Below are positions 7,795 to 58,529 of a DNA stretch of 64,000 bases, piece by piece. Source of the DNA: Desulfurobacterium atlanticum (GTDB lineage: Bacteria > Aquificota > Aquificia > Desulfurobacteriales > Desulfurobacteriaceae); contig NZ_FZOB01000001.1 in assembly GCF_900188395.1 (NCBI RefSeq), positions 244,981 to 308,980 on the forward strand, in the 5' to 3' direction. The notes under the pieces were generated by a model, which was given only the letters and a program-made list of their open reading frames with translations, was not told where the DNA came from and searched no databases. The position numbers and the translations under genes are program-made. The stretch's first letter is position 1; each line of letters starts with the position of its first letter.

Positions 7795-7831
7795 GTATTA
7801 CATTAATTTATTACGTTATCCCCAAGGATTA

Positions 7832-7845
7832 TTGATTTAAATCAA
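7832..7845. promoter_or_regulatory. perfect FNR/CRP-family operator
   Basis: TTGATTTAAATCAA is a perfect 14-base palindrome matching the FNR consensus TTGAT-N4-ATCAA exactly. Its centre lies about 49 bases upstream of the start point predicted from the promoter at 7853-7881. It sits between the nik operon and the C_GCAxxG gene, so an oxygen- or redox-sensing FNR-family regulator could act on either; distance favours the rightward gene. Confidence 0.65.
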
Positions 7846-7852
7846 AGTTTTT

Positions 7853-7881
7853 TTGACTTTGTTTTTATTCGGCAATATATT
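7853..7881 (+). promoter_or_regulatory. sigma70-type promoter of the C_GCAxxG gene
   Basis: TTGACT (7853-7858) and TATATT (7876-7881) have the ideal 17-base spacing. The predicted start near 7888 leaves a leader of about 43 bases that contains the GAGGTG ribosome-binding site at 7921-7926. Confidence 0.6.
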
Positions 7882-7930
7882 AATAAACAGAAATAACTTT
7901 ATTTCTTAAAATCTAATATTGAGGTGTTTG

Positions 7931-14643: not shown

Positions 14644-15460
14644 AACCTATTCAGCTTTTTATGGAACTTATATTGATTATAGCAGTGGCAATAAAACCTC
14701 TGGATACTCTGGAACGTTTTATTTAAATACAGGAGATCTTTATCAATCAACATCCTTTGGAATATCTGCAACGAGAGTGGAAGAGAAAACAGAAGAAACT
14801 GTTTCTTTTCAAGGAAAACAAAGAACAGAGATCGTGACAGATTATATAGACCAGCTTGATTTTACTCTTCTTTACACAAATACAGATAAAATTCTAAAAA
14901 ATCATATTTTTAGTTTCGGGTTCCATTACATATTAACAGATGACAAATCAACAAATAACGGTTCTATTTTCTACTTTGACGGAACATACTTTAAACCTTA
15001 CAACTGGAATTCTGGGTTAGAGTTTGCAGTTTCGTTTTATCCTTCCACTAAGGTTTTTCAATTTGTTCCTCATCTTGGAAAGTATTTTTATACAAAAAAT
15101 TTCACCTATTATACCTGGGTAAAAGGATACTATATAAAGGTTGGAGATACGGCAGATTTTGCTTTTTCCAAAACCAATTACTTTTCAGGGGAATTTGGAG
15201 TTCACTTTTATAAAGGTAATTTTGATGCCGGTGTTTTTCTTTGGGGAGGGGAGCAGGTTTTTGCTGTGAAAAATTCAGGATTTGTTGTTTATAACTTAGG
15301 AGATGTTTACAAGGGAGGAATAGTTTTTGATGGTGGATATAAGATTGATAAAAATTATAGAGTCGGATTTACTGCATCTTTAAATAGATTTGAGTATCCT
15401 GATACTGGAGAAAATGCTGTTCAAACTTCTGTAACAGGGTATGTAGGCTATACCTGGTAA
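14579..15460 (+). CDS. outer-membrane beta-barrel protein, unknown function
   Basis: 293 residues with signal peptide MKKFLLMATAMAVLFSQKASA, then alternating aromatic beta-strand segments (YSAFYGTYIDYSSG, HIFSFGFHYILT, YFSGEFGVHFY) and a terminal aromatic residue in GYVGYTW, as in porin-like barrels recognised by the Bam machinery. It starts inside the 3' end of the urea-transporter/M23 gene, so the two are probably co-transcribed and may work together in the envelope. No close family recognised. Confidence 0.6.
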   Translation: MKKFLLMATAMAVLFSQKASAKTYSAFYGTYIDYSSGNKTSGYSGTFYLNTGDLYQSTSFGISATRVEEKTEETVSFQGKQRTEIVTDYIDQLDFTLLYTNTDKILKNHIFSFGFHYILTDDKSTNNGSIFYFDGTYFKPYNWNSGLEFAVSFYPSTKVFQFVPHLGKYFYTKNFTYYTWVKGYYIKVGDTADFAFSKTNYFSGEFGVHFYKGNFDAGVFLWGGEQVFAVKNSGFVVYNLGDVYKGGIVFDGGYKIDKNYRVGFTASLNRFEYPDTGENAVQTSVTGYVGYTW

Positions 15461-40784: not shown

Positions 40785-41102
40785 TTAAGAGCTTCGGAGA
40801 AATGCTTTTATGATTTTTATCGTTTCCTCTATTCTCCTTCTACCTTCTATGCTGGAGGAATGGCACTTAAGTTCTATATTCTTCTTTAATCTTATTTTTC
40901 CTGTTAACACCATCTCTTCAAGCCAGTTTATAAAATCTTCTCCATTTCCCCCGAATTTGTCGTAAATTCCCATATCATAATCTATATCAATGGCTTCAAT
41001 TCTATCCTGATACTTTTTAACAAACTTTTTCAGGTCATCCACAGTTCTTACAAGTTTGTACCCCGGTGGTGGTAGTCTGTTGTCGTCAAGGTAGAGTTTC
41101 AT
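40785..41102 (-). CDS. cREC-like (cyclic-phosphate-processing receiver) domain protein
   Basis: 105 residues resembling a stripped receiver domain: KLYLDDNRLPPPGYKLVRTVDDL at the N-terminus, AIDIDYDMG with acidic residues in the second strand, FINWLEEM, and LKCHSSSIEGRRRIEETI. This pattern fits proteins annotated as cREC, suggested to act on cyclic phosphate RNA ends. It sits 60 bases upstream of gatC and divergent from the CRISPR type III locus, so it may belong to either. Function inferred only from family resemblance. Confidence 0.55.
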   Translation of the reverse strand: MKLYLDDNRLPPPGYKLVRTVDDLKKFVKKYQDRIEAIDIDYDMGIYDKFGGNGEDFINWLEEMVLTGKIRLKKNIELKCHSSSIEGRRRIEETIKIIKAFLRSS

Positions 41103-41211: not shown

Positions 41212-41289
41212 AAGAGAAGAAGTTTTGTTAAAATAACACTAAATAGGGGAATTTTTAAATTTTAGATGAATTTTAATTTGGAGGTAGCT

Positions 41290-42147
41290 ATGGAGGCAAT
41301 TTCCTTAAAAACAGTACTTGAAAATTATAGGAAAACGAAAGATGAGGTTCTTACAAGTTTGAGAAAAGCTCTTAATGGTGATGGTAATGTTAATAAAGTT
41401 GCTGAAACATTTTCCGTTGGAGATTTATTTTCTTTTGGAAAATTTCTGGGAATGATTGTTGATGAAGGAGAAAATTGTTATTGGTGTTGTAAAGTTTCAG
41501 AATTTATAGAAATGGTCGGTCCTTATGACGTTATTGTTAACATTGGCAGTAAGAGATTTATAGTGGAAACTTCAAATGCTTTTATCGTGCCTAAAAGTTT
41601 AATGGGCAAAGCGTTCAAAGCAGGAACTCTAAGTGAAACTGACTTTGATTTTGTAATCAAAGCTTATGACGGAGAGAAAATTTCTTCTCATAAAACGGGA
41701 GAAGAATTTGTCCCTGATGATTTAAGGTTTTTATTTCTAAAAGAGGAAGGGGATTTAGTAAGAAAATTTGCTAAACTTGCTGGGAAAACCCTCTTTTCTT
41801 CTACAGAAAAACTTCAGACAAGTGATAAAGAAGAAAACAATTGTATAATTCTTTCCTTCATTCCTGAAGATGTTTTTGAAATAGTTGCTGCTGATACTGA
41901 AAATAAGGTGGAGTATGCAGATGACTTTGTCCTTTTAAGAGAAGGAGAGGGAATTAAAATTTTTCCGTCTAAAAAATTTGTAGGAAAAAGAGGAATGATT
42001 AGAATATTTGGTAAAGAAAAATTTTATGAATCTGTGCCCGGGGAGATAATTTTGAAATCTAAGGATGAAAAATTGTCATCTGTTCCCCTTTCTATTTTGG
42101 TTGGAAAAATAAAAATAGAAAGGGAAAGTGATAAAGATGAAGTTTGA
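41290..42147 (+). CDS. unknown protein, first gene of the CRISPR type III island; candidate partner of the Lon-SAVED protease
   Basis: 285 residues (about 32 kDa) from ATG 41290, chosen because GGAGGT lies at 41280-41285; an in-frame ATG at 41266 would put that RBS inside the gene. No signal peptide, no membrane helix, no recognised domain. Residues 1-60 are helical; the middle has YWCC and beta-strand-rich stretches (YDVIVNIGSKRFIVETSNAFIVP), and the C-terminal third another beta region (FVLLREGEGIKIFPSKKFVGKRGMIRIFG). Its end overlaps the protease start. In the CalpL-CalpT-CalpS system the protease gene is linked to its substrate (CalpT, about 33 kDa) and a sigma factor; similar size and coupling make this the prime substrate candidate, but I see no sequence proof and no sigma factor gene nearby. 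Confidence 0.6.
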   Translation: MEAISLKTVLENYRKTKDEVLTSLRKALNGDGNVNKVAETFSVGDLFSFGKFLGMIVDEGENCYWCCKVSEFIEMVGPYDVIVNIGSKRFIVETSNAFIVPKSLMGKAFKAGTLSETDFDFVIKAYDGEKISSHKTGEEFVPDDLRFLFLKEEGDLVRKFAKLAGKTLFSSTEKLQTSDKEENNCIILSFIPEDVFEIVAADTENKVEYADDFVLLREGEGIKIFPSKKFVGKRGMIRIFGKEKFYESVPGEIILKSKDEKLSSVPLSILVGKIKIERESDKDEV

Positions 42148-43657
42148 TGAATATCCTGTTGATATTGTTATTGAATTTGTTAGAGAAGGGAGAACTATTC
42201 CTTTTGAGGAGAATGAAGAATATATCAGAGAAATCTTTTTAGGTGAATCAGTCACTGATAAACATTTCTTTCTGCAGAATCTTTTGTTGTTTAGACTTTT
42301 AGATGAAATACCTATAAGTGAAATTGAAAAAGTTATGGCTATGGAAATTGTTGATGTTAAACATTTTGAGTTTCCTGCAATTTCTGTTTCAAACAAACAA
42401 AACGATTGTGTGTTGAGGGGGAAGATCGTTTATACCAGTAAACCACCGAAAAGAAACAGTTTTTTAGTTGACAATAATGTGATTCGGGCGTGTAAAACTT
42501 TCAAAAGTTTGTTTAATACGAAAAATTTTATTTTAGTGTTTGATGGTAGAGAATTTACAGGGACGTCATTTATGCTCTCTGTTGTTGTAGCTCACTTCTT
42601 TTCTCAAAAGTTATTTGAGTATTTTATGTTTACAGGAGAAGTTCTTCCTTCAGGAAAAATAAACAAAGTGGACTCTATTCTGGAGAAAAAGAAACTTGCA
42701 CAAAGGTATGGAAAAAAACTTATATCACCTGAAGACGTTTCTTCTATTGAGGAAGTTGATTTCTGGCTTAACGAAAGCAAACCTCTTCCTGTTCCTTTTT
42801 CTGTGATGATAAAGAAAAATAATGATGGTTTAAAGCTTCTTGAGAGTGCGATAAAAGAAAGGGAGCCTTTGTTTTCTCTAAAAAATTTGGAGGTTTTTTT
42901 TGAGATAAAGCGCGAAGATATTTCCATACTGCATTCTGGGTTTTTGTCGGAAAATTATCAGGAGTGGCTGGCTTTTGTTCACAGAATAAGGGAGCAACTT
43001 AGGAAGCTTTTTTCTAATGAGAAGCTGGTAGAGCTAAAAAAACCTGTTATAAACTTAATATGTTCAGAATCCATTATAAGTTTTGTAATTGGAGTGCTTG
43101 TTGGTACCAAGAAGAGAGTAGTTTTTCATTCATATAACCGTGGCGATAACGTTTATGTTCCTTCAATGGAAACAGATGATAGTTTAAGAAGTTTGGATTT
43201 TCCAGGGGCTGAATTTTGTGGAGAGTTGATAGATTACGAATATTTTATATCAGATAAAAATAAAAATGTTCTTCCAGTAATTATTGATATGGCACCGACA
43301 ACGAGAATAGAGTATGATGTAAAAGAATTTTTAAAGAAAAATAGGATTGAAAATTTCATCGTTATAAAAATAGATAGAGACAAAATTAAGAACTACATTC
43401 CTGAAGATACAAATATACGGAAAAAATTAGTAAAAGAAATTTATAATTTGTTAAATTGCCAGACTTTTAAGAAATTTTCAAAGTTATGGTTTTTTATGAA
43501 TCTTCCTGTGGATATAGCTTTCGGACTTGGAAGCACTTTTCAGGATACAAGGATGATTTCACTATTTAAATTTTTTCCAGGAAAGAAAGATAAATATGTA
43601 GAGGTTTTAAATGTTTCTCCTGGACCTTCCCCTGGTGGTGTTAAAAGTATTTTTTAG
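42137..43657 (+). CDS. Lon-protease/SAVED fusion (CalpL-like CRISPR effector)
   Basis: 506 residues from ATG 42137 (GTG 42128 is an alternative). Residues about 90-215 resemble a Lon protease domain: REFTGTSFMLSVVVAHF parallels Lon's catalytic G-P-S-A-G stretch (Ser144), FTGEVLPSGKIN parallels Lon's T-G-E strand, and the Lys184-186 cluster in SILEKKKLAQRYGKKLI falls about 41 residues after the Ser, where the dyad Lys is expected; SPEDVSSIEE parallels Lon's following P-x-x-N segment. The C-terminal half (about 240-500) looks like a SAVED cyclic-nucleotide sensor, with KKFSKLWFFMNLPVDIAFGLGSTF near its end. CRISPR Lon-SAVED proteins are activated by cyclic oligoadenylate from Cas10. Gene order next to Cas10 supports this. 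Confidence 0.75.
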   Translation: MKFDEYPVDIVIEFVREGRTIPFEENEEYIREIFLGESVTDKHFFLQNLLLFRLLDEIPISEIEKVMAMEIVDVKHFEFPAISVSNKQNDCVLRGKIVYTSKPPKRNSFLVDNNVIRACKTFKSLFNTKNFILVFDGREFTGTSFMLSVVVAHFFSQKLFEYFMFTGEVLPSGKINKVDSILEKKKLAQRYGKKLISPEDVSSIEEVDFWLNESKPLPVPFSVMIKKNNDGLKLLESAIKEREPLFSLKNLEVFFEIKREDISILHSGFLSENYQEWLAFVHRIREQLRKLFSNEKLVELKKPVINLICSESIISFVIGVLVGTKKRVVFHSYNRGDNVYVPSMETDDSLRSLDFPGAEFCGELIDYEYFISDKNKNVLPVIIDMAPTTRIEYDVKEFLKKNRIENFIVIKIDRDKIKNYIPEDTNIRKKLVKEIYNLLNCQTFKKFSKLWFFMNLPVDIAFGLGSTFQDTRMISLFKFFPGKKDKYVEVLNVSPGPSPGGVKSIF

Positions 43658-43686: not shown

Positions 43687-43714
43687 TGGAAAAATTCGTT
43701 TGGGGGGATTGAGT

Positions 43715-45403
43715 GTGGAGTCTTACCTTCTCAAAGGAGATATCAATGGAATACAAAATTTTATCTATTCTGTAAAAGAAGGAAAGGGAGGTGTTGCAAA
43801 AACGTTAAGAGCAAGAAGTTTCTTTATTACAACAATTCCCTCTTACATAGCATACTTTTTAAAAGAAAAGCAACATCTTGAGGTTGAAGTTTGTCTTGAT
43901 GGTGGTGGTGGTTTTATATTCAAAGTTTCGGGAGAAAATGTTGAAAGTGCATTAAAAGAACTTAAACAAAAAGTGGAAGCAGTTTTTATTGAGAAATTTT
44001 CTGGAGAGTTAGGAATTACTATTGAGTGGTTGCCTTCTGGGAAGGGAAATTTTTCAGACCTTCATGAAGTTACGTTGAAAGCTAAAAAAAGGAAATTTTC
44101 CACCTATTTTGAGAGCGTTAAGAATCCAATTTTCCTTGAAGATAAAGGAAAAGTTAAATGTGAGGTTTGCGATATTTACTTTACAGATTCAGATGATGGT
44201 ATATGTAAACTTTGTAAAGAGTTTATGGAAGTCGGGACAAAACTTCCATCAAAAAAATTCTGGAAGATTACAGATAAAAAAGAAGGAAGAGCGTTTTTCT
44301 CTATTAAAGAATTTGGATGGCTTATTTTTCCAAAAAATGGAGGGCATGAAGCATTCCGGAAGGAGAGTTATAGAGACAGTAAATGCAAAAAATACAGCAA
44401 TGCTCCTAAAAAATTTGAGATAGTTGTACCTGTTATTTCAAGAGATTTAACACAAGAGGATATTAAAAAGTATTCCCTATCAGAGGAGCTTGAAAATCTA
44501 AAAGAACATCAAATCGCACCTTTTGAGATAATAGCCTATCACAGTGAAGGAGATAAAAAACTTGGTTATTTGATGATGGATGTTGATAACCTTGGGTTAC
44601 TTTTCGGTCAGTTGGATGATGTTGGCAAACAGCAAAAGCTTAGCTCTATAATAGATATGTTTTTCTCTGAAAAAATTCCGGAGATAGCAAAAGCAGAAAA
44701 GTTCGTTCCTGAAAACTCTGATCTTCTAAAAGAAACTCTTATCTACCTTCTATATTCAGGAGGAGATGACCTGTTTGCAATAGCACCGTGGAACGTTCTT
44801 ATAGATTTTGCTGTGTGTGTGAGAGAGAAATTCAAAAGTTATATATCAGAATCACTTAAAGGGAAGGATTTACTTGGTAATGATACAAAAAAAGATTCTT
44901 ACGAATTGATAACTGTTTCAGCAGGAATTTATATAAGTAAACCGAAATTTAATATAAGAGCAGCTGCAGAAAAATGTAAAGATGCAGAGTACAGAGCAAA
45001 AACTGTTACCTCTTTCAGCAAAAAGAAAGAGAAATCATACTCTAAAGATGCTGTTTGTGTGTTTGATGTTGTTGTTCATTGGGATGATATAAATGATTTG
45101 TTGTCGGTTTCCAGAGATCTGATTTCCTACATTGAAAGTGGAAAGTTATCCCGCGGTTTTGTCTATAAGTTACACTCTCTTTATAAGGAAAAGATTGAAA
45201 ATCCGGTAAATTCTGGAAAAAGACCTGATTTAAGTTTTTATCCTCTTATCTATTATTTTGTGGGAAGAAATATAGAAGATGATGAAGTTAGAAATTTTGT
45301 TACTGAAAAAGTAATTAAAGAAGCGGAGGATTTTGAAAACATTGAAAATAATAAACTTAAGTTTATAACAAACTATGTGCTTCTTGCTACAAGGAGGTTA
45401 TAA
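43715..45403 (+). CDS. cas10: Cas10/Csm1, HD-less, with intact GGDD cyclase
   Basis: 562 residues from GTG 43715, seven bases after GGGGGG; the TTG starts upstream overlap the RBS. It opens directly with the first Palm domain (LLKGDINGIQNFIYS); the N-terminal HD nuclease normally present in Csm1 is absent and there is no room upstream for it. A zinc-binding insert has CEVC and CKLC (about 149-168). The second Palm domain has LMMDVDNLG and SGGDDLFAIAP (GGDD about 350-353), so synthesis of cyclic oligoadenylate should be possible while ssDNA cleavage is not expected. This fits a locus with a SAVED sensor. Confidence 0.92.
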   Translation: MESYLLKGDINGIQNFIYSVKEGKGGVAKTLRARSFFITTIPSYIAYFLKEKQHLEVEVCLDGGGGFIFKVSGENVESALKELKQKVEAVFIEKFSGELGITIEWLPSGKGNFSDLHEVTLKAKKRKFSTYFESVKNPIFLEDKGKVKCEVCDIYFTDSDDGICKLCKEFMEVGTKLPSKKFWKITDKKEGRAFFSIKEFGWLIFPKNGGHEAFRKESYRDSKCKKYSNAPKKFEIVVPVISRDLTQEDIKKYSLSEELENLKEHQIAPFEIIAYHSEGDKKLGYLMMDVDNLGLLFGQLDDVGKQQKLSSIIDMFFSEKIPEIAKAEKFVPENSDLLKETLIYLLYSGGDDLFAIAPWNVLIDFAVCVREKFKSYISESLKGKDLLGNDTKKDSYELITVSAGIYISKPKFNIRAAAEKCKDAEYRAKTVTSFSKKKEKSYSKDAVCVFDVVVHWDDINDLLSVSRDLISYIESGKLSRGFVYKLHSLYKEKIENPVNSGKRPDLSFYPLIYYFVGRNIEDDEVRNFVTEKVIKEAEDFENIENNKLKFITNYVLLATRRL

Positions 45404-45834
45404 TGAGTAGGAAAAATCAGCAGTCGGAAAAAAATTTGCTAAAAGAAATTAATCGCAAATTGTCAGCTGTTGAATCTATTTCTGATGTTTTTAAAGAAAG
45501 CGACATATATAAACCTGAAGGTAAGCTTTTTAAAATTCTTGAACAAAACAAAAATGCGTTTAAAACCACTCAACTAAGAAAGATTTTTTCCGAAATAAAA
45601 ATGATAGAGATGGAAATAGAAAGGAAAAAAGAGTTAACGCAGGAGGTAAAGAAAAGAATCTTTCGTCTTTACCCAAAACTTGCTTACTCAAAAGCTCGCG
45701 ACTTAATCAAAGAAGACTTTTACCAATTCTTTATCCTTTTACTTGAAAAAATGGAGAAAAACAAAGAAGAAGCTTTAAAAGTATGTGATGTTTTTACCTC
45801 TATTGTTGCCTTCAAAAAATATTTAGAATCATGA
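45403..45834 (+). CDS. csm2: Csm2, small subunit of the type III-A complex
   Basis: 143 residues, all helical. The signature TTQLRKIFSEIKMIEME is the Csm2 T-Q-L-R-K-F motif, followed by RLYPKLAYSKAR and the C-terminal DVFTSIVAFKKYL, which matches the family's end. This gene decides subtype III-A rather than III-B. Its ATG shares one base with the cas10 stop; the RBS AAGGAGG is inside cas10. Confidence 0.88.
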   Translation: MSRKNQQSEKNLLKEINRKLSAVESISDVFKESDIYKPEGKLFKILEQNKNAFKTTQLRKIFSEIKMIEMEIERKKELTQEVKKRIFRLYPKLAYSKARDLIKEDFYQFFILLLEKMEKNKEEALKVCDVFTSIVAFKKYLES

Positions 45835-45856
45835 AACTTTGAAGTGGGAGGATGAA

Positions 45857-46621
45857 ATGGAAGAGCAAAGATATCATTTTTACGGAAATGTGCTAATACC
45901 TTTTAGGCTTGAAGTTGTTACAGGACTTCATATTGGTGGATCAAAAGAGGGATTTGACATAGGAGGAGTTGACAATCCCGTTATTAAACTGCCGTTTGAC
46001 GTAAAAGTTAAGTCTGAGTTTTCAGGTGAAGAATATGTTGTGCCTCGTGAATTTCCTTACATTCCTGGTTCAAGTTTAAAAGGAAAAATAAGGAGTCTTC
46101 TTGAATGGGAAAATAATCTCGTTAGAGAAGACGGTTCTCCGACTGCCGATCCTGATAGTGCGGTAGGAAAAGTTTTTGGAATCGCTGACAGTGATAGAGA
46201 AAAAAGGAAAAAAGCAGGACCTGTTAGATTAAGAGTTTTTGACTCCTACATTTCTAAAGATAGCATTGAGAACGATTTTTATACAGAGCTTAAATATGAA
46301 AACTCCATAAACCGTATAACTTCAGAAGCAAATCCGAGGCCTTTTGAGAGAGTTCCTGCTGGAACAGTTTTTGAAGGGAGATTCCTTCTTAAACTTTTCG
46401 CAAGGGAAGATGTTGATTTCTTAAATCTTATTGAAACAGGAATGAAACTGCTGGAAGATGATTACCTTGGAGGTGGAGGTTCTCGGGGATCTGGAAGGGT
46501 AAGATTTTCGGATATTAGAATTGTATTCAGGGATAAGAAATTCTATAAAGGTGAGTGTAAAGAGAAAATTTTCACAGATTTCAGGAACGCTATTGAAGAA
46601 ATAAAAAAAACTATAGGGTGA
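45857..46621 (+). CDS. csm3: Csm3, backbone RAMP with target-RNA cleavage Asp
   Basis: 254 residues from ATG 45857, placed five bases after GGGAGG; a TTG 18 bases upstream is in frame but poorly placed. GLHIGGSKEGFDIGGVDNPVIK contains Asp39, the position of the RNA-cleaving Asp of Csm3; IPGSSLKGKIRSLLEW is the RAMP glycine-rich/arginine motif, and GGGGSRGSGRVRF the C-terminal one. Forms the filament along crRNA and cuts target RNA every six bases. Confidence 0.93.
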   Translation: MEEQRYHFYGNVLIPFRLEVVTGLHIGGSKEGFDIGGVDNPVIKLPFDVKVKSEFSGEEYVVPREFPYIPGSSLKGKIRSLLEWENNLVREDGSPTADPDSAVGKVFGIADSDREKRKKAGPVRLRVFDSYISKDSIENDFYTELKYENSINRITSEANPRPFERVPAGTVFEGRFLLKLFAREDVDFLNLIETGMKLLEDDYLGGGGSRGSGRVRFSDIRIVFRDKKFYKGECKEKIFTDFRNAIEEIKKTIG

Positions 46622-46626
46622 TATAG

Positions 46627-47595
46627 ATGGAAAGTGTAAGAATTCTTATTAAACCGACTTCTCCGTTAAAAAGTGAACTTTCTTCTTACACGCTATTTTC
46701 AGCTATCTGTTGGGGATTAAAGTTTCTATATGGAGATGATTATGTTAAAGAGTTAGTAAATATGGTTTCTTCCAGTAAATTTTTTATATCTTCTTTGATG
46801 CCTGTAGATATAGAGAAGAAAAAATTTTTTTACTTTAAACCAGAACTTGAACCTGTAATAGAGAGAGAAACCGATCCTGAAAAACGCAGCGAAAGAAGAA
46901 CGATGCAGAAAAAATTTAAGAAAAAGAAATTCATAGATTTTCTTTCTTTAAAGAAAATATTAGATGGAGTGATAAAAACAGAGCTTGAACTTATGAATTT
47001 CCTTGTTGATGAAAATGGAAACGAAACATTCTATATAAGTTTAGAATTTCCTCATGTAAGTATAGACCGATTTTCAATGACAGCTAAAGAAGGTCTGTTT
47101 TTCTATGAAAGTGCGGTTTTTATAGAATCCGGGTATTTTATTGTTTTTGCTGAAGAGGAAATTTTAAATGCTGTGGAAAAATCTTTAACTCTTTTAAAGG
47201 ATTGGGGAATAGGCGGAAACAGAAATATAGGTTATGGAGCTTTTAATTTTGAAATTTTGAAGGACGAAGAGCTAAATATTCTTTCCGATTACTTTATCCG
47301 ATATTTTAATGGAGCGACAAGCTTTATTACTCTTTCTCCTGTAATTCCAACTTCAAATATAGATTTTTCAAAAAGCATGTATTCTCTTTATACATTCAAA
47401 GGTGCAGCGGAATACGATTTTCAAAAAGATGTTTTATGGAAGAGAAAAGTGTTTTATATGAAGGAAGGTGCGGTTATAAAGAGGAAAAAAACAGATGAGA
47501 CGGCAGGTGCTATATTGGATGTTTCTCCTGAACCTTCAGTTTCTATTTTTCAATACGGTCTTGAATTTCCTTTGTGTTTAAGGGGTGAAATATGA
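46627..47595 (+). CDS. csm4: Csm4, crRNA 5'-handle-binding RAMP
   Basis: 322 residues. The N-terminal SPLKSELSSYTLFSAICWGLKFLYGDD is the Csm4 pattern; GIGGNRNIGYGAFNFEI is the glycine-rich RAMP loop. Binds the crRNA 5' tag and joins Cas10. Overlaps csm5 by four bases. Confidence 0.88.
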   Translation: MESVRILIKPTSPLKSELSSYTLFSAICWGLKFLYGDDYVKELVNMVSSSKFFISSLMPVDIEKKKFFYFKPELEPVIERETDPEKRSERRTMQKKFKKKKFIDFLSLKKILDGVIKTELELMNFLVDENGNETFYISLEFPHVSIDRFSMTAKEGLFFYESAVFIESGYFIVFAEEEILNAVEKSLTLLKDWGIGGNRNIGYGAFNFEILKDEELNILSDYFIRYFNGATSFITLSPVIPTSNIDFSKSMYSLYTFKGAAEYDFQKDVLWKRKVFYMKEGAVIKRKKTDETAGAILDVSPEPSVSIFQYGLEFPLCLRGEI

Positions 47596-48730
47596 GATTT
47601 CGTTTGACAACTCTGACACCACTACATATAGGAACCGGACAAAACATATCCCCTTTTGAGTTTATAATTAAGGATGGAAGATGTTATATTTATGATATTA
47701 CTGATATTGTAGGTATCAACTCAATAGTTGATCTGAAATTGAAAAATATGCTTAAAAATTCTGCAACTTCATTGAGTCTAAAAAAGATAATTACTGATTC
47801 ATCTATTAAAAAGGTTTTAGATAGGATAAAGCCCCTGTATTCTATTGCTATTGAAATAGACTTTCAACAAGGTTCTATGAGATCTGGAAATATAAAAAAT
47901 ATTGAAGAGTTTATAAAAACCAATAATCTTGTATATATTCCCGGTAGTGAAATAAAAGGCAGTTTAAGAAGAGCCCTTTTTTATTACATTCTGAGCAAAG
48001 AAAAGAAAATCGGTGGTTCAATATATATCAAATTTATAAAGAAACTTCAAGGTATTGTGCATCAGTATCAAAAGGAAAAGAAAAATTCAGAGGACTTTAG
48101 AGCTTTAAAGAGAAAGTTCAAAAAGAAGTTAAGTAGACTGGTTCAACAGATAGAGTTTGAAGTGTTTCGTGGAGAAAAGTTTACTGAGGACGCAAAGAGA
48201 GATGTTTTAAGATTTGTAAAAATCAGTGATACTGAATCTAAAAGTCCTGAAGAGGTTCTTTCTTTGCGAGAAATTTACATTTATTATTACCACGGTAAGA
48301 GAAAACAGTTCTCAATATTTTCTGAAACTGTGGACCCAAAAGTTTCTTTTTCATTTAACTTGGATATTGATAAAAGAGGAATAAAAAACTGTGGTTGTCA
48401 CGAAATTTTAAAAGACATTTTTATTAACGATAAGCTTTTACGTAGTTGGTGTTCTGCTGAAATATGGACTTTAAATAAGGATGAATATTTAAAGTCTCTG
48501 TGTCCCCTGTTGTTAAAAAAATGTTTAAAATGCCAATAATAAGAATAGGAAAACATGAAGGATTTTTATCAACAACAATCACAGCCTTGGTAAAAGACGA
48601 CGAAGAACTTTTTGAAGGAATTTTTGAAATAGTTGCTCCTAAAATGAGTGAAATTCCAAATAAAACGAGAAAACTTACGGCAGTTGAGAAATTGCCTCTT
48701 GGGATATGTAAATTAGGAGAAGAAAAATAA
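47592..48730 (+). CDS. csm5: Csm5 split by a -1 frameshift at an A7 tract
   Basis: The first part (47592-48539, 315 residues) has TTLTPLHIGTGQNISPFEF and IPGSEIKGSLRRALFYYIL, both Csm5 features, but ends abruptly after LLLKKCLKCQ. The conserved Csm5 C-terminus (IRIGKHEGFLSTTI, NKTRKLTAVEKLPLG) is found in the -1 frame up to 48730. The two are joined if one base is re-read at A7 (48515-48521), in zero frame TTA-AAA-AAA-TGT, i.e. the classic heptamer A-AAA-AAA. Programmed ribosomal or transcriptional slippage, or an under-counted A8 in the assembly, would all give a full-length Csm5 of about 379 residues. Csm5 caps the complex at the crRNA 3' end. Confidence 0.85.
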
Positions 48731-49500
48731 TGCCTGTTAGTTTCAATTTGAGAGTATCTATTAACAGGAAAATTAACATAGAGGAATTAAACCCCGAAAG
48801 AATTCATGCTCTTTTCTTCAGTTTTCTTCCAGAAAGTATGGCTAAAAGCTTGCATGCGGATAATATAAAACCCTTTTCTCTATCATATCAAAGATTTTTT
48901 AACAGTAATAAAGAAAGAGAGATAGGAAGTTTTATACTAAAAATTTCTTTTCTCAAAGAAAAAATGTTTCCACTGTTTGTTAAAGAAGTTTCCAAAGCTG
49001 GAAAAGATAAGAATGTTGTCATTGGAAAAGCAAAGGTAGTTAAGACAAAAATCAGTTCTGTTAACTATATTTCTTATGCAGAACTTTTAAATAATGCTGG
49101 TTATGAAAAGGATATAGTTTTTCAGGTTATAACTCCTGCAACTTTTAAAAAAGGAAAATATGATAATCCATCTCCGGTTCCATCTCTTATTTTCAAAAGT
49201 CTATTTAGAAAATGGAACCATTTTTCCAGACTAAAGCTGCCGATTTCAGAAACAGAGTTTATAAAGTTGGTTAAAAGACATGTTTTAACATCTGGCTTAT
49301 GGATAAAAACGGAAAAAGTTTTCATATCTCTTTCTTTTAAAAAACTTATAGGCTTTAAAGGTAGGTTATACTTCTATATTGACACTGACAATAAGCAACT
49401 TTTAAAAGTTTTAAATGCTTTATCTGATTTTTCAGAGTTTAGTGGTATCGGCAGGAAAACAACTATGGGTTTTGGTAGAATAAAAAGAATTAATAGTTAG
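48730..49500 (+). CDS. cas6: Cas6 CRISPR repeat endonuclease
   Basis: 256 residues. N-terminal ferredoxin-like fold, middle FQVITPATFKKG, and the diagnostic C-terminal glycine-rich loop FSGIGRKTTMGFGRI. Cuts the repeat transcript 3' of its short hairpin, leaving the 8-base 5' tag ATTACGAC. The ATG shares one base with the csm5 stop. Confidence 0.92.
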   Translation: MPVSFNLRVSINRKINIEELNPERIHALFFSFLPESMAKSLHADNIKPFSLSYQRFFNSNKEREIGSFILKISFLKEKMFPLFVKEVSKAGKDKNVVIGKAKVVKTKISSVNYISYAELLNNAGYEKDIVFQVITPATFKKGKYDNPSPVPSLIFKSLFRKWNHFSRLKLPISETEFIKLVKRHVLTSGLWIKTEKVFISLSFKKLIGFKGRLYFYIDTDNKQLLKVLNALSDFSEFSGIGRKTTMGFGRIKRINS

Positions 49501-49525
49501 CAGTAATGGTAAAGGAGGGATTTTT

Positions 49526-51145
49526 ATGAAAGAGGTAAGATGGGATGACCTGATAGAAAAGGTTAGTAAAGTTGAAAAAATTGTAAATGAAATAAAAACT
49601 ATAGGTGGAATAAATGTTGATTGGATAGAGGAGAAACTTGAAAGAACAAAAAAAGATATTTATGGAAAAGTGTTTAAGATTTCTGTTTTTGGTGGATTTT
49701 CAGATGGAAAATCTACAATTATTTCGTTTCTGCTAAAACGTAATGACATAGAAATATCACCAGAACCGACTACAGATAAAGTCAACTATTATAAATACAA
49801 GAATAAAAATGTAGTTATTGCAGATACTCCTGGGCTATTTTCTGAAAACTTAATTCATGATGAAGAAACAAAGAGATTTATATCTGAATCTGACCTTATT
49901 ATCTTTGTAACCGATGCACTCAATCCTTTGAAAGAGAGCCAGCATAGGGTTATAAAGTGGCTTCTTAAAGATCTGGATAAAAAAGACTCAACAGTCTTTG
50001 TCATTAATAAAATAGACACAATGGATGTTGACCTGTATAACAGGGAGGACTTTGAGAGAGCTTGCAAAATAAAGAAAAAGGTCGTTTCAGAAACTCTTGA
50101 TAGAATTATTGGGGAAAATGCAGGAAACTATCGGATTATCTGTGTTGCTGCTGATCCATGGGGGATGGGAATTAAATACTGGATGGAGAATATTGAGGAG
50201 TATTTTTCCATCTCAAATATGAAGGTTCTTGAAGAAATTATAGAAGAAACCATTAAATCTCCAGAAACAATGAATATTCTTTTTGAAAAAAAGGTAAATT
50301 CGGTTATAAAAGATGTTAAAAACGTTTTTTCTGTGGAATTGAGGAATAACCTGAAAAGTCTTGAAATCTCCCTTGAAGAGCTTGAAGTGGAGCTGGAAGA
50401 GCTTGATAGTGAATTAAGAAAACTTGAAAAGCATATTACAAAGGCCACAAGGGACTTTAAGGAGCGAATTCGTAATTTGAGAAGTTCTATATTAAGGAGA
50501 ATAAAGTTATGTAACAATACAGAAGAGTTGGGACTGGTTGTCCGCGAAGAGTTGGGCCCTGAAGCAGTAGTTTTAAAAAGTAAAATAGAAGATATTTTCT
50601 ATGAGTGTTTTACTCCAGTGACAGAATATCTTGAAAAGTCAGGGGATATTTTTTTAAAAATTGTTGAGGATTACCAGAAGCTTAAGATGGAATCCTCAAT
50701 TTTCGCCAGCAAGTTTTTAACTTCTGCTACAAAAAAGACAGGAGAAATTTTAGGTAAAATTCCTCCTGATAAATTAAGGGATGGTATTTTACAAACAAGA
50801 GACCTTTTAAGAATTCCTTTTAAATTTAAACCGTGGGGGGCTTTGAAACTTGCAAGATTTCTCAATACATTGGGACCCGTTCTCGGTGCCGTTTCTTTAG
50901 GTATGGAGCTTTATAATCAGTATAAATTAAGAAGGGAAAAAGATAATCTTATAGAAGCAGTGGATTCCCTGTTTTCTGTATTTTTAGGAGATTTTAACTC
51001 TCAATATATTAAAGAAAACTATTTTTCTGCAGTTGTTGAAATGGAAAATTTAAGGGATGCTATTTATGATGATTGTAAGTTTATGAGAGAAAGGATAGAA
51101 AATATGAAAAACTTGATTACAAAGGTGGAGGAACTTGGGCTATGA
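49526..51145 (+). CDS. dynamin-like GTPase A
   Basis: 539 residues. GTPase domain: P-loop GGFSDGKS (56-63), a switch Thr in SPEPTTDKV, DTPG (100-103), NKID (161-164). Long helical stalk with coiled-coil pattern (about 260-340: LEISLEELEVELEELDSELRKLEKHI), then a short hydrophobic segment at about 443-463 (ARFLNTLGPVLGAVSLGMELY) that could act as a membrane paddle. GTPase head, helical stalk and paddle is the bacterial dynamin-like plan. A good RBS (AAAGGAGGG) is at 49511-49519. Overlaps the second GTPase gene by four bases. Its place between cas6 and cas1 suggests a role in the CRISPR response; I do not know of an established role. Confidence 0.72.
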   Translation: MKEVRWDDLIEKVSKVEKIVNEIKTIGGINVDWIEEKLERTKKDIYGKVFKISVFGGFSDGKSTIISFLLKRNDIEISPEPTTDKVNYYKYKNKNVVIADTPGLFSENLIHDEETKRFISESDLIIFVTDALNPLKESQHRVIKWLLKDLDKKDSTVFVINKIDTMDVDLYNREDFERACKIKKKVVSETLDRIIGENAGNYRIICVAADPWGMGIKYWMENIEEYFSISNMKVLEEIIEETIKSPETMNILFEKKVNSVIKDVKNVFSVELRNNLKSLEISLEELEVELEELDSELRKLEKHITKATRDFKERIRNLRSSILRRIKLCNNTEELGLVVREELGPEAVVLKSKIEDIFYECFTPVTEYLEKSGDIFLKIVEDYQKLKMESSIFASKFLTSATKKTGEILGKIPPDKLRDGILQTRDLLRIPFKFKPWGALKLARFLNTLGPVLGAVSLGMELYNQYKLRREKDNLIEAVDSLFSVFLGDFNSQYIKENYFSAVVEMENLRDAIYDDCKFMRERIENMKNLITKVEELGL

Positions 51146-53085
51146 CTGCTCGTGAGTTTATAGAAAATAGTATTCAGGAGTTTGAAAAAATTTTAGAAGA
51201 TTTTGAAGAGAGAAGTGGGGTTATTCTTAAACGTGTTGCTTCCAAGACAAAAAGAACAAAAAGAAAATATATTGATAAGGAAGATAAGATTTATAAAAAG
51301 ATAGAAAAGAGAATAAAAGATTTTTATCATAACCTTTCCCTTCTTGGAAAGGAGATGGAGTTTGATACTTTAAACGTAGCTTTTTTTGGAGAAACAAATG
51401 TAGGTAAAAGCACTCTTATAGAAGCCCTAACAAAAGGAGATGGTAGCACTATTGGTGATGGAAGAAAAGATTTTACAAAAACATTTAGAGCAAAAAATTT
51501 TGGTAGAAAAATATTTCTGCTTGATATGCCAGGTATTGAAGGAAATGAAGCTATAGTTTCTGAAGAGATTAAAAGGGCAGCTAAAAAATCTCATATTATC
51601 TTTATAGTAATTCCTGAAAATAAAGAACCAGAAGAAGGATTTCTTGAAAAAGTTAGAACATATATCGGGGATAGCACATTTGTATTTGGTATTATCAATT
51701 TAAGAGGAATTTTTCCTTTAAATGTTCTCGAGAAGAAAAAAAAGAACATTGAGATCGTAAAAAAACGTACTGAACAAAAATTAAAAGGAGAATTTGGTAA
51801 AGCTTTTAAAGAAATATTTATTGTTCATGGTTTATACGCTTTTTTTGCTATGAATAGTGGAATTCCTGAAAGCCAGAAATCCTCTTACGAGAGGGTTATG
51901 AAATTTGTCAAAAATGATAGAGAGAAGCTTAAGGAGTTTTCTGGAATAAACAAAGTAATAGAAACCATAGGAACATATAAAACTTTCTCAAACAATGTAA
52001 TTTTATGGAGTAATATTTACAAGCTTTTCAAAAAAGAGAAAGAATTAATCATAAGTGTAAGAGAGGAGAGAACTCAGCTTAAAAAAACTATTGAGGATTT
52101 TCTGAAAGAAATAGAAAAACTTAAGAGAAAATTTGATTCACAAAGTGAATCTTTACTCAGCGATATAAACTCAGAAGTATTTTTCCGTTTAGACGAATTG
52201 AGAGATGAACTTGAGGAGCTTATATGTAACGCCATAGATGCTGGAAGGGATAAAGATGATTTAAATTCAGAGATAGAGGAAAAAATAGATCTCTGTATAG
52301 AGGAAATGGAGGAAAATATAGAATATTATCTTGACGATTTTATAGAGGATGTAAACAAAGATATTGAAAAATTGATTAAGAAATTAAAATTGAAGTTTAA
52401 AAGGATAAACCTGGGAACAGATATTGGAATTGATGTAGACTTTACAGAAGCATTTAATAGTCTTTCATTGTCTTTTAAGGAAGCAGCGCTTGGAGCATTA
52501 AGTATATTGGAAAGTATCGTTTCTATTTTAACAGGTCCGATAGGTGCAGTTATTGCTGGTATTTTTGGTTTGTTGAACACCTTCCTATCCTGGCTTTTTG
52601 GAGGAAATTCAAAGAAAAATGAAGCCAAGAGAAAAGCTATAAATGAAGTAAACAAAACTATCAGAAATATACGAAATAAGCTCAGGAGAAAAGTTAATGG
52701 TGAACTTAAAAAACTTAGAAGAGAGATTAACAAAGTTGAAAGAGAGATATTAAAAATAGAAAAACAGATAGAAAATAAAGTGGAGTATTGGGATATTCTA
52801 ATTTCCTTACTTGTAGAACATTACATATCTTTATCAACGAATTTCTTTAAGACCATTACTCAATCTGTAGAGTTTGCTTACGTTGCTCCTGATTCAGGAA
52901 AGAATAAAGAACCTGTAGCTATTATTGTTGGAGGAGATATAGAAAAAATAGGATATTTTTGTAATAACATTGGAATTAAAGTCTACTTCAAAGATTCTAT
53001 TGAAAGCGCACTTAAAACTCTAAAATCAAAGGATAAAAAATTATACAGCGAGATAAGAAGTTTAGTGGAAAAAGAATGTTTTTGA
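51142..53085 (+). CDS. dynamin-like GTPase B with membrane segment
   Basis: 647 residues. P-loop GETNVGKS (83-90), switch region GDGRKDFTKT, DMPG (128-131). The canonical N/TKxD base-recognition motif is missing: the strand reads VFGIINLRG (181-189), so nucleotide preference may be altered. Coiled-coil stalk (about 295-420), then a 40-residue hydrophobic stretch (about 448-487, including SILTGPIGAVIAGIFGLLNTF), long enough for a membrane hairpin, then a second coiled-coil (495-550) and a small C-terminal domain. Co-translated with GTPase A; bacterial dynamins often act as such heteropairs. Confidence 0.72.
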   Translation: MTAREFIENSIQEFEKILEDFEERSGVILKRVASKTKRTKRKYIDKEDKIYKKIEKRIKDFYHNLSLLGKEMEFDTLNVAFFGETNVGKSTLIEALTKGDGSTIGDGRKDFTKTFRAKNFGRKIFLLDMPGIEGNEAIVSEEIKRAAKKSHIIFIVIPENKEPEEGFLEKVRTYIGDSTFVFGIINLRGIFPLNVLEKKKKNIEIVKKRTEQKLKGEFGKAFKEIFIVHGLYAFFAMNSGIPESQKSSYERVMKFVKNDREKLKEFSGINKVIETIGTYKTFSNNVILWSNIYKLFKKEKELIISVREERTQLKKTIEDFLKEIEKLKRKFDSQSESLLSDINSEVFFRLDELRDELEELICNAIDAGRDKDDLNSEIEEKIDLCIEEMEENIEYYLDDFIEDVNKDIEKLIKKLKLKFKRINLGTDIGIDVDFTEAFNSLSLSFKEAALGALSILESIVSILTGPIGAVIAGIFGLLNTFLSWLFGGNSKKNEAKRKAINEVNKTIRNIRNKLRRKVNGELKKLRREINKVEREILKIEKQIENKVEYWDILISLLVEHYISLSTNFFKTITQSVEFAYVAPDSGKNKEPVAIIVGGDIEKIGYFCNNIGIKVYFKDSIESALKTLKSKDKKLYSEIRSLVEKECF

Positions 53086-53322: not shown

Positions 53323-54255
53323 ATGAGAAACATTTTTGTTACAACTCATGGTGCATCTTTAACTAAAAGAAAATATGAGCTTATTGTTACTCTGAATTCC
53401 AAAAAACACACTATACCTTTTGGAAGTTTTTCAAACTTGTTTATAGTGGCAAATGTTAAAATTTCCACTCCTCTTATAAAAGCGTTAACTGAAAATAAAA
53501 AAAGTGTTTTCATACTTAAATCAAATGGCACTTTAACTTCAATGATACTTCCTCCTTTTTTGAATTCATCGGCAAGAAGAAGAGTTGCTCAATATAAAAA
53601 GTTTGAAGATGAAAGTATTAAAATATTTATGATTAAAGAACTTCTAAGAAGAAAGTCTCTTCTTACTCAATGGACGCTTGAGAAATTTTACGATTTTTCA
53701 GAAAAACACTATCTTGAAAAAAACATAATAAAAAGTTTTTACAGGTGCACTAAAGATTGGATAGAAAAATCTTCAAGCATTGCAGCACTCAGGGGGATAG
53801 ACGGCTACATTATGAACACCCTTTACGATCATTTCGCTCAATCAATTTCAAAATTCTGGGAATTTGAAAAAAGAAGCTACAATCCACCTAAAAATGAAGT
53901 GAATAGTGTGCTTAGTCTTGTCTACACATACACATATTCCATACTTACTTCTATAATAATTTCTTATAATCTTGATCCTTACTGTGGATTTTTCCACGAA
54001 AAACATGGAAAACATGCAGTTCTCGCTTCTGATTTATTAGAACTACTAAGGCCTGGATTAATTTTTTTTGTAGCTGACATTCTAAACAGTAGATACATTG
54101 AAGCTACTGATTTTAAAAAGACACGAAAATCTATACTGATAAAGCAACCTGCATTAAAAGTAATTTCTAAGTTATACTCAGAAAAAGTATTAAATGGTTC
54201 CTTTTTCTATCCAGTTTCAGCATTTATTCATGAAATAATGTTAAGAGGATTGTAA
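53323..54255 (+). CDS. cas1: Cas1 integrase with Asp in place of catalytic Glu
   Basis: 310 residues: N-terminal beta-domain (FVTTHGASLTKRKYELIV, TIPFGSFSNLFIV) and helical C-terminal domain. The three metal ligands align as Asp160 in LRGIDGYIMNTLY (nearly always Glu in Cas1), His225 in CGFFHEKHGKH and Asp237 in LASDLLELLRP. The Glu-to-Asp change is conservative and may keep activity. Preceded by a GGGGGAAGG ribosome-binding site. Starts the adaptation module cas1-cas2-cas2. Confidence 0.92.
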   Translation: MRNIFVTTHGASLTKRKYELIVTLNSKKHTIPFGSFSNLFIVANVKISTPLIKALTENKKSVFILKSNGTLTSMILPPFLNSSARRRVAQYKKFEDESIKIFMIKELLRRKSLLTQWTLEKFYDFSEKHYLEKNIIKSFYRCTKDWIEKSSSIAALRGIDGYIMNTLYDHFAQSISKFWEFEKRSYNPPKNEVNSVLSLVYTYTYSILTSIIISYNLDPYCGFFHEKHGKHAVLASDLLELLRPGLIFFVADILNSRYIEATDFKKTRKSILIKQPALKVISKLYSEKVLNGSFFYPVSAFIHEIMLRGL

Positions 54256-54272: not shown

Positions 54273-54533
54273 GTGAAATATCTTGTTGTTTACGACATTT
54301 CAGATGATAAAATACGTAATAAAGTTTCAACAAGGCTTAAAAAATTCGGTATGCGTGTTCAATATAGTGCTTTTGAAATAGAGATAAAGAAAACTGACTA
54401 TATCAAGCTCTACAAAGAAATAGCTTCGATTATAGATAAAACAGACTCTGTGTTCTTTTTTCCATTATCATCCTATTCAGAAAGCTTAATATTAAAACTT
54501 GGACAGGTGAAAAGAGAGGAAGATGTAATATGA
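54273..54533 (+). CDS. cas2: Cas2, first copy
   Basis: 86 residues, GTG start after AAGGAGG. Begins KYLVVYDISDDKIRNKV with the conserved Asp of the Cas2 ferredoxin fold, then FGMRVQYSAFEIEI and VFFFPLS. Typical length. Overlaps the second copy by four bases. Confidence 0.92.
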   Translation: MKYLVVYDISDDKIRNKVSTRLKKFGMRVQYSAFEIEIKKTDYIKLYKEIASIIDKTDSVFFFPLSSYSESLILKLGQVKREEDVI

Positions 54534-54850
54534 AATATAAATTTTCCAATAGGATAACAACTTACATAATAATTTATGACATTTTATCAGATGATGTTAG
54601 AGGGTGGGTTTCTCTGGCAAACCGTAGAAGGGCAAAAATTTCCAGAATTCTTTTAGAATACGGTATGAGAACTCAAAAAAGTGTATTTGAACTTGAAATA
54701 ACTTCCAAAAAAGAGTTTTCCAGAATGATTAAAAGATTAGAGAAAACTATGAATAAACATGATAAAGTATACATCTATCCAATAGATTCTAAAAATAAAA
54801 AGAAGATAAAAAGATTGGGATATGAAATTGAAACAGATTTTTTCTTTTAA
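54530..54850 (+). CDS. cas2: Cas2-like protein, second tandem copy
   Basis: 106 residues. TTYIIIYDILSDD with the Cas2 Asp, RRAKISRILLEYGMRTQKSVFELEI and KVYIYPID, the same fold elements as the first copy but strongly diverged and with a longer N-terminus. Cas2 works as a homodimer between two Cas1 dimers; two unlike copies in one operon could form a heterodimer. Confidence 0.85.
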   Translation: MKYKFSNRITTYIIIYDILSDDVRGWVSLANRRRAKISRILLEYGMRTQKSVFELEITSKKEFSRMIKRLEKTMNKHDKVYIYPIDSKNKKKIKRLGYEIETDFFF

Positions 54851-55183: not shown

Positions 55184-58100
55184 GTTGAAATGCCCTTAGA
55201 ACCGAAAGGGATTACGACTTATTTCCAATTTAATTTTGTTCATCTCACACCTCCTTAAGTTGAAATGCCCTTAGAACCGAAAGGGATTACGACTTGTAAA
55301 TATACAGCATTTTCATAACAACCTCCTCTTGTTGAAATGCCCTTAGAACCGAAAGGGATTACGACTATAATATCACTTATATTTGACGCCTCAATCGAAT
55401 TATGTTGAAATGCCCTTAGAACCGAAAGGGATTACGACTATAATATCACTTATATTTGACGCCTCAATCGAATTATGTTGAAATGCCCTTAGAACCGAAA
55501 GGGATTACGACTATAATATCACTTATATTTGACGCCTCAATCGAATTATGTTGAAATGCCCTTAGAACCGAAAGGGATTACGACAATATCTAGAAGTTTG
55601 TTATAACTAATATATGTTTTTAGTTGAAATGCCCTTAGAACCGAAAGGGATTACGACATTTAATATTATTTTAGTATCTTTCACTATATCCTTATATCCA
55701 TGTTGAAATGCCCTTAGAACCGAAAGGGATTACGACTGTAATCAATACTTTCTAATTCATATGAACTAACTGTTGAAATGCCCTTAGAACCGAAAGGGAT
55801 TACGACCCGCCAAATGGCGGCTGACTCTTCTTTCCAATTTTATTGTTGAAATGCCCTTAGAACCGAAAGGGATTACGACGATAATATTTCTAATGAAGTA
55901 TCACCAACACGTTTCAATTCGTTGAAATGCCCTTAGAACCGAAAGGGATTACGACACGCATCCCTGGCCACCCCCTTTCACCGGTGGTGCAAACGACCGT
56001 TGAAATGCCCTTAGAACCGAAAGGGATTACGACCCGGGTTTATTTCCCGGCCTCTCTATCTTTGGAGATCCCCTCATGTTGAAATGCCCTTAGAACCGAA
56101 AGGGATTACGACTACAACATTTTCATGACTTACCACCTCCTATTTTATTTGTTGAAATGCCCTTAGAACCGAAAGGGATTACGACTTTAGCTAACATATT
56201 TATACTTGCATATAATGTTTTTGATAAATGTTGAAATGCCCTTAGAACCGAAAGGGATTACGACATTAAGTATCTTTGTTTATAGATCTTAAAGTATACT
56301 TCGTTGAAATGCCCTTAGAACCGAAAGGGATTACGACTAAATAATACCGAACTATCATTACCAACACTCTTTTTAACTGTTGAAATGCCCTTAGAACCGA
56401 AAGGGATTACGACCCTCAGAAGAGGGAGGGGGTTGATGCCCAGGGCATAGCCCTGGTTGAAATGCCCTTAGAACCGAAAGGGATTACGACTCGTATCCAC
56501 CAGCAACGTACAATTTATTATCAAAGGACGTGTTGAAATGCCCTTAGAACCGAAAGGGATTACGACATACTCCGTTTCAGATAACTTTTGAGGGAACTGG
56601 ACTAATACAAAGTTGAAATGCCCTTAGAACCGAAAGGGATTACGACCGATAAGGAGCATGAAGAGTTCAAACATATTACCTCCTGTTGAAATGCCCTTAG
56701 AACCGAAAGGGATTACGACAGGTAACTTCTCCGGTAACTGAATCATAATATACCTAGTTGAAATGCCCTTAGAACCGAAAGGGATTACGACTCTCATGTT
56801 TACCTCCTAAAAATAATAATTTATTTCAGTATAGTTGAAATGCCCTTAGAACCGAAAGGGATTACGACATTATATTCTAATATTGTTTGCATGAGCTTAA
56901 AGTGGTTGAAATGCCCTTAGAACCGAAAGGGATTACGACCAGGGTTCGGGATTCTTGATATGAAATAGATCCTCCTTGCGGAGTTGAAATGCCCTTAGAA
57001 CCGAAAGGGATTACGACACCGCCAAATGGCGGTCAACCTTTCTTTCTAGTTTTACTAATGGTTGAAATGCCCTTAGAACCGAAAGGGATTACGACCAAAA
57101 ATATTTTTTTATTGTATAGAGGAGGACGGGGATTAGTTGAAATGCCCTTAGAACCGAAAGGGATTACGACACACAACAAAAATAACTACTTCTATAAACA
57201 TAATATATGTTGAAATGCCCTTAGAACCGAAAGGGATTACGACATATTTTGAGACTGAATAAATATTCAGAATATAATAACTATGAGTTGAAATGCCCTT
57301 AGAACCGAAAGGGATTACGACATATTATCATTTACATATAGATCTATAAGTCTATTATAAGTTGAAATGCCCTTAGAACCGAAAGGGATTACGACTTATT
57401 GGTGGGTATGTCTATTATCATGCCATCTTCTATTTTATGTTGAAATGCCCTTAGAACCGAAAGGGATTACGACATCCGATATCTTCAATTTCTTCAACAG
57501 TATACTGTTGAAATGCCCTTAGAACCGAAAGGGATTACGACTATCCCTCTATTCTTTTATAAAGATACAACATTTTCATGACTTTACGTTGAAATGCCCT
57601 TAGAACCGAAAGGGATTACGACATATTATCATTTACATATAGATCTATAAGTCTATTATAAGTTGAAATGCCCTTAGAACCGAAAGGGATTACGACAAGA
57701 TGAATAGATATAATTTCATCAACGGAATTACCGAGTTGAAATGCCCTTAGAACCGAAAGGGATTACGACAATACTACGACGACCAGAGAGGAGAAAACTC
57801 TTCCTCGTTGAAATGCCCTTAGAACCGAAAGGGATTACGACCCCAGGGCATAACCCTGGGCCACTAGACTTGCTATATCAGTGTTGAAATGCCCTTAGAA
57901 CCGAAAGGGATTACGACAAAGTTGCTATATCAGTAAGGACCTCTTGAATGAGGTCCTTAGTTGAAATGCCCTTAGAACCGAAAGGGATTACGACTTGGAT
58001 GTATCTCATCTACATCTATAATAAATGGGATATTTTTTAAGTTGAAATGCCCTTAGAACCGAAAGGGATTACGACAATCCAAAATCAGTTAATTTATTTA

Positions 58101-58529
58101 GAAGAGATATATTAAGTTGAAATGCCCTTAGAACCGAAAGGGATTACGACATTTAGCATACTTTGGAAATATATCCATAGATAATCTAAATTTAAATGTT
58201 GAAATGCCCTTAGAACCGAAAGGGATTACGACAGTATGTATTCTCCCATTTTCTTATAAATATACAACATTTTGTTGAAATGCCCTTAGAACCGAAAGGG
58301 ATTACGACTATCCTTATATCCATATAACATATCCTTTAAAAAGTTGAAATGCCCTTAGAACCGAAAGGGATTACGACGCTTCAGGTGCGTGTATTCGTGA
58401 AGCAGCACTTTTATGGAGTGTTGAAATGCCCTTAGAGCCGAAAGGGATTACGACCAGGGTGGCGGGTTACCACGATATCTGCCTTTGACACCGTGTTGAA
58501 ACGCCCTTAGAACTGAAAGGGATTACGGC
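55184..58529 (+). CRISPR. type III-A CRISPR array, 45 repeats of 35 bases, 44 spacers of 33-47 bases
   Basis: The repeat begins GTTGAAATGCCC and ends AAAGGGATTACGAC. Inside it CCCTT and AAGGG form a 5-bp hairpin, and the eight bases after the stem, ATTACGAC, would be the crRNA 5' tag after Cas6 cleavage (compare ATTGCGAC tags of Thermus type III). All repeats are identical except the last two: 58420-58454 has one change, and 58495-58529 has three. Those mark the distal end, so transcription runs left to right from the cas2 side. Spacers 3, 4 and 5 are identical, and spacers 29 and 33 are identical. Confidence 0.97.

Follow-up and report, generated by a model that had tools for sequence, protein, structure and literature searches.

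Two large GTPase genes are placed between cas6 and cas1 in a type III clustered regularly interspaced short palindromic repeats (CRISPR) locus of the thermophilic bacterium Desulfurobacterium atlanticum, and the question raised by this locus is whether they form a membrane-acting arm of the CRISPR system or a separate defence module lodged within it. The locus is contained in a 64,000-nucleotide (nt) stretch of contig NZ_FZOB01000001.1 (positions 244,981–308,980, forward strand), hereafter the window, and the pair spans positions 49526–53085 of that stretch. The two proteins are LeoA and LeoBC, an established dynamin-like module catalogued as the anti-phage system Eleos, also listed as LeoABC or "Dynamins". 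The pair is an insertion relative to a paralogous locus in the same genome, where a natural empty site is found. Most probably a Leo/Eleos module was captured in a type III-A locus, where it would serve as an autonomous defence rather than as a new CRISPR effector.

Identity and Predicted Structure of the GTPase Pair

Both open reading frames (ORFs) are intact and overlap by 4 bases in the form ATGA:

49526..51145, + strand: leoA, LeoA/HP0731-family dynamin-like GTPase of 539 aa with a helical stalk
51142..53085, + strand: leoBC, second dynamin-like GTPase of 647 aa with a hydrophobic hairpin (435–482) and a C-terminal alpha/beta domain (576–646)

The first protein passed the NCBIfam LeoA model NF041922 (370 bits, above the cut-off of 325) and matched the PADLOC LeoA model (9e-87), the Pfam domains DLP_helical (4.6e-42) and Dynamin_N (4.6e-14), and, by phmmer, the solved LeoA structure PDB 4aur (1.9e-47). 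Its GTPase motifs are GGFSDGKS (G1), DTPG (G3) and NKID (G4). The AlphaFold model, predicted as a single chain like that of LeoBC, had a predicted local distance difference test (pLDDT) score of 81, and its top Foldseek match was LeoA itself (4aur, 9e-21).

The second protein matched the PADLOC models of LeoA (9e-99), LeoBC (6e-76) and LeoB (1e-52), that of LeoBC over most of its length, and in Pfam just MMR_HSR1 together with a sub-threshold Dynamin_N. It carries GETNVGKS (G1), T112 and DMPG, and its G4 motif is non-canonical, with INLR instead of NKxD, N186 being invariant across the family alignment. Its model (pLDDT 79) showed a dynamin-like fold matching the bacterial dynamin BDLP (2j68), IniA, the Campylobacter dynamin-like protein (DLP) structure 5oxf and mitofusin-1 (VIA Z 22); the fold matches of the two models include 4aur, 2j68, 5oxf and 5yew. 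Residues 576–646 (window 52867–53079) form an alpha/beta domain beyond the dynamin core, which has a counterpart in nearby LeoBC clades and is barely covered by the comparison with PDB.

Intact ORFs, family models and folds agree in bearing out the first-pass annotation of this DNA where it described a dynamin-like GTPase pair between cas6 and cas1, read in the same direction. The paddle-like hydrophobic segments that it assigned to both proteins are strong in LeoBC (residues 459–477, mean Kyte–Doolittle 2.1, with helices 435–464 and 466–482) and weak in LeoA (residues 442–460, mean 1.2, low pLDDT). Between them, the two proteins carry a G domain, a long helical stalk and a predicted membrane tip, the tip being the hairpin modelled in LeoBC.

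The pair was also considered as a unique and unknown dynamin pair, and the annotation had been aware of no established system of this kind; this is rejected, since the Leo family models match. The dynamin-like LeoA/LeoBC pair reportedly features as an anti-phage system in the original Eleos report. The place of Eleos among catalogued defence systems is supported by PMC11811056 and PMC10482375. In Escherichia coli, LeoA, LeoB and LeoC constitute a tandem dynamin system in which LeoB and LeoC represent a split second dynamin (PMC4159319).

Distribution and Gene Order of Leo Pairs

A search for LeoA across 84,980 species genomes gave 126 confirmed relatives, of which 80 were kept. Viral contigs yielded 5 related loci and plasmids 8, and no Leo pair was found in phage records by tblastn. 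A LeoBC homologue adjoins LeoA in nearly all loci examined, mostly with intergenic gaps of a few bases. The order is leoBC→leoA in 81 loci and leoA→leoBC in the Aquificota loci; one further locus (L142) scored as leoA→leoBC proved to be a mis-pairing across the two pairs held there. True LeoA members occur in 5 of 136 genomes of the phylum, and these five proteins form one group (SH-aLRT support 99), in which the window LeoA joins a Persephonella fragment (92) and the proteins of loci L072 and L073 join each other (100). Elsewhere, Leo loci lie near unrelated defence genes (type I restriction–modification, PrrC, DpdA, TmtA, AbiU, GajB-like and DRT), as expected of a defence-island cassette.

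Insertion Into a Type III-A Locus

The same genome contains a second type III-A locus (L180; contig 2, 88000–107900) in which cas6 directly adjoins cas1 and no Leo genes are present. It comprises its own CalpL, a longer Cas10 (830 aa), csm2–5, cas6, cas1, two successive cas2 genes and an array whose repeat resembles that of the window locus. Identity between the two loci is 25–43% for the effector proteins and for Cas6, as against 56–66% for Cas1 and both Cas2 proteins; this difference places the pair at the junction of two modules able to swap partners. Conservation of the pair across type III-A loci within the order was rejected, as no Leo genes were found in two related csm loci (G013, G023) or in six further type III-A stretches of the order (with cas6 in view in four), and the remaining 23 genomes of the order showed no true Leo pair. 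Transposition marked by flanking direct repeats was likewise rejected, with just a 9-mer found, and the leoBC–cas1 spacer gave no strong match among the fetched loci.

The genes on either side of the pair were confirmed with Pfam, PADLOC and NCBIfam (Cas10, csm2–5 and cas6 upstream; cas1, cas2 and cas2 downstream) and define the locus as type III-A:

41266..42147, + strand: CalpT-like anti-sigma candidate, 293 aa (weak PADLOC CRISPR-T match, 3e-5; position and length)
42128..43657, + strand: CalpL-type SAVED-Lon protease, putative cyclic tetra-adenylate (cA4) effector of the locus (PADLOC SAVED_LON, 1e-147)
43700..45403, + strand: cas10/csm1 lacking the HD part but keeping the GGDD cyclase motif (TIGR02578, 304 bits; SGGDD in the translation)
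45403..48539, + strand: csm2, csm3, csm4 and csm5 (Pfam/NCBIfam/PADLOC)
48730..49500, + strand: cas6, upstream neighbour (Pfam CRISPR_Cas6, 5e-18)
49501..49525, + strand: cas6–leoA spacer, 25 nt (sequence and pattern scan)
53323..54255, + strand: cas1, downstream neighbour (Pfam Cas1, 3e-53)
54273..54533, + strand: cas2 (Pfam Cas2, 1e-20)
54530..54850, + strand: second cas2 paralogue (Pfam Cas2, 9e-18; PADLOC Cas2, 4e-20)
55184..58377, + strand: CRISPR array with 43 exact 35-nt repeats (repeat count)

The leoA start codon is preceded by a strong Shine–Dalgarno sequence, AAAGGAGGGATTTTTATG, and a pattern scan of the 25-nt spacer found no terminator between cas6 and leoA. A gap of 237 nt separates the end of leoBC from the start of cas1. 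For Cas10, the alignment to TIGR02578 begins only at model position 230, the HD part being missing.

Other features of the locus were observed. The csm5 gene (47592–48730) is split: its frame ends at 48539 and the conserved C-terminus resumes in the −1 frame at 48500–48730, the translation of which matches the Csm5 of G013 by phmmer. The frame is interrupted at TTA AAA AAA T (A_AAA_AAA), a slippery run of the classic kind; a frameshifting mutation, misassembly or recoding may be the cause. The two adjacent, differing cas2 genes after cas1 (54273–54850) are kept in the paralogous locus (L180, 15785–16365) and in related genomes, the loci with this double cas2 including L187 and L190. On the − strand, 40785–41102 codes for a cyclic-phosphate-processing receiver (cREC_REC) protein, divergent from the adjoining CalpT/CalpL genes, which belong to this putative cyclic-oligoadenylate system. 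A linked CalpS sigma factor was sought for the CalpT-like and CalpL genes (41266–43657) and none was found near CalpL; the three sigma-70 region 2 genes of the genome are all on other contigs.

Linkage of Leo Genes to CRISPR Loci

With curated models, Cas10, RAMP or Cas1 within 10 kb of LeoA was found in the window only, i.e., in 1 of 53 distinct LeoA-bearing genomes; for this linkage test the Cas10 model was run on 50 of the locus handles. An earlier phmmer screen with the Cas proteins of the window had shown no cas neighbours in ∼85 loci, and it missed the Cas6 of L072. The full PADLOC defence library was applied to the neighbours of 17 loci, and ∼30 genome loci were covered by the less sensitive phmmer screen alone, so that the count may miss other Leo loci linked to a lone cas6 or csx1 gene.

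The PADLOC neighbour scan revealed a second case in L072, from another Aquificota family, where the pair lies between csx1 and cas6 on the strand opposite to both, has its own 604-nt upstream region and adjoins a seven-repeat array that reaches the contig end. On the best reading, the linkages of the window and of L072 arose independently, because the neighbours and orientations differ. In L072, the cas6–Leo–csx1 segment is bounded by two DUF1232 genes (7738–7911 and 14665–14839) whose 46-nt upstream sequences are nearly identical, as if these genes had been duplicated on either side of it. L073 and L075 are not CRISPR-linked, and in L087 the repeats that had been flagged as an array encode coiled coil and are not CRISPR. 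Recurrent linkage of the Leo family to type III loci was not found: the case of the window and that of L072 are joined by a single LeoA fragment 17 kb away from type III genes. The annotation had treated the cas linkage as meaningful unless close homologues were mostly unlinked to cas genes, and this is largely how they were found to be.

Autonomous Defence or Type III Effector

As an autonomous module, the LeoA–LeoBC cassette would have been captured where the effector section of the locus (csm, cas6) meets its adaptation section (cas1, cas2, array). The genes leoA and leoBC are probably co-transcribed with csm–cas6 and expressed simultaneously with them. On the model of Cj-DLP1/2, LeoA, DynA and the catalogued Eleos systems, the two proteins may form a heterotypic dynamin-like pair that assembles at the inner membrane, reacts to membrane disturbance in infection, and either seals or tethers the membrane or delays or aborts lysis, thereby protecting against phage. 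The pair would do so without reading the type III second messenger. Action at the inner membrane and late in infection is proposed because the two Cj-DLPs act together as a 2:2 heterotetramer that tethers membranes (PMC6104087) and because DynA accumulates at the membrane towards the end of infection, delaying phage lysis (PMC8844932).

Several observations weigh against the capture of an autonomous module. The same-strand position and the 25-nt gap suggest that the pair and the cas genes are co-expressed. CRISPR linkage is not unique to the window, given the position of the L072 pair beside an array, and a planctomycete LeoA fragment with an in-frame stop lies 17 kb upstream of type III genes. 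LeoABC and a type III-A system occur in one Pseudolactococcus laudensis island published in 2026 (PMC13335696). Two of the four assessable Aquificota pairs are CRISPR-linked, for which a crude model gives a chance P of ∼0.03 for at least two, although known clustering of defence genes could explain linkages of this number.

The strongest competitor holds that the Leo pair is the membrane arm of the type III-A system, in which a type III signal, conveyed by cA4 through CalpL proteolysis, by a direct ligand or by CalpT-linked transcription, may trigger membrane remodelling or killing. Its placement within the operon, on the same strand and 25 nt past cas6 with a strong ribosome-binding site, favours this explanation, but the pair is missing from related type III-A loci and its homologues are mostly unlinked to cas genes. 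A Cas10 with GGDD and no HD part implies a locus that depends on signalling effectors, and the protease CalpL is encoded in it; against this explanation, the locus already has an effector in CalpL. The second CRISPR-embedded pair, in L072, adjoins the CARF-HEPN effector Csx1, yet it is on the opposite strand and has its own upstream region. Membrane-acting type III effectors have precedents in Cam1, Csx23 and CorA, but the survey that covers them, of 1113 type III loci, is silent in its main text on dynamins and GTPases (PMC11229360). No CARF or SAVED domain was detected in LeoA or LeoBC with Pfam, PADLOC or NCBIfam, residues 576–646 of LeoBC not having been searched alone. The lack of HD in Cas10 and the presence of CalpL make a signal-gated type III membrane arm possible, but beyond position nothing here favours it; as an explanation of the pair we hold it to be unlikely. 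The broader version, in which the Leo pair of some thermophilic Aquificota is a co-regulated, signal-dependent type III membrane arm gained at least twice (window and L072), is decidedly doubtful. The membrane role in phage defence put forward by the annotation is reasonable, but with no CARF or SAVED domain found and the pair not conserved in related type III-A loci, nothing here shows that it belongs to a type III arm.

It is also unlikely that the pair is a chance neighbour brought in by the tendency of defence islands to gather defence genes, sharing neither expression nor function with the cas genes. The rarity of CRISPR linkage, the location at a junction of exchangeable effector and adaptation modules and the variety of other defence genes adjoining Leo pairs elsewhere are consistent with such an origin, but fully independent transcription is made less likely by the close fit of the pair between cas6 and cas1 on their strand and by the lack of a detected terminator ahead of leoA. 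A role in membrane or vesicle housekeeping traffic instead of defence, for which the effect of LeoABC on vesicle release in enterotoxigenic E. coli could be invoked (PMC4159319), is very improbable, as the patchy presence in the phylum, the plasmid and defence-island locations and the insertion in a CRISPR locus fit defence better.

With the capture of an autonomous Leo module as the preferred reading, the apparent novelty of the pair is resolved as a known dynamin defence module, inserted in a locus that has a natural empty counterpart in the same genome. If co-transcription were shown, the locus would offer a simple setting for asking whether membrane-level and RNA-guided defences act in sequence, with type III first and the dynamins as the last barrier to lysis. 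If instead the pair proved responsive to type III signals, this would, to our knowledge, make it the first dynamin-class type III effector.

Comparison With Known Systems

The pair resembles the known LeoA/LeoBC (Eleos) systems in having two adjacent, overlapping dynamin-like GTPase genes, in passing the curated LeoA model and in the hydrophobic tip of LeoBC. It differs from them in the leoA→leoBC order, confined to the Aquificota clade, as against leoBC→leoA in the 81 other loci, in being embedded in a type III-A cas operon, and in the C-terminal alpha/beta domain borne by LeoBC. Cj-DLP1/Cj-DLP2 of Campylobacter jejuni (PDB 5owv, 5oxf) are likewise paired bacterial dynamins with similar predicted folds, but their identity to the Leo pair is 12–16%, and they are not linked to defence in PMC6104087. 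Bacillus subtilis DynA is a bacterial dynamin with two GTPase parts and demonstrated phage tolerance through delayed lysis; unlike the Leo pair, it is a single fused protein outside the Leo family and without CRISPR context. Cam1, Csx23 and CorA, like the window pair, are encoded within type III loci and act on membranes, the membrane action of the Leo pair being predicted. They respond to a nucleotide messenger, whereas LeoA and LeoBC have no detected sensor domain and belong to a family found mostly outside type III loci.

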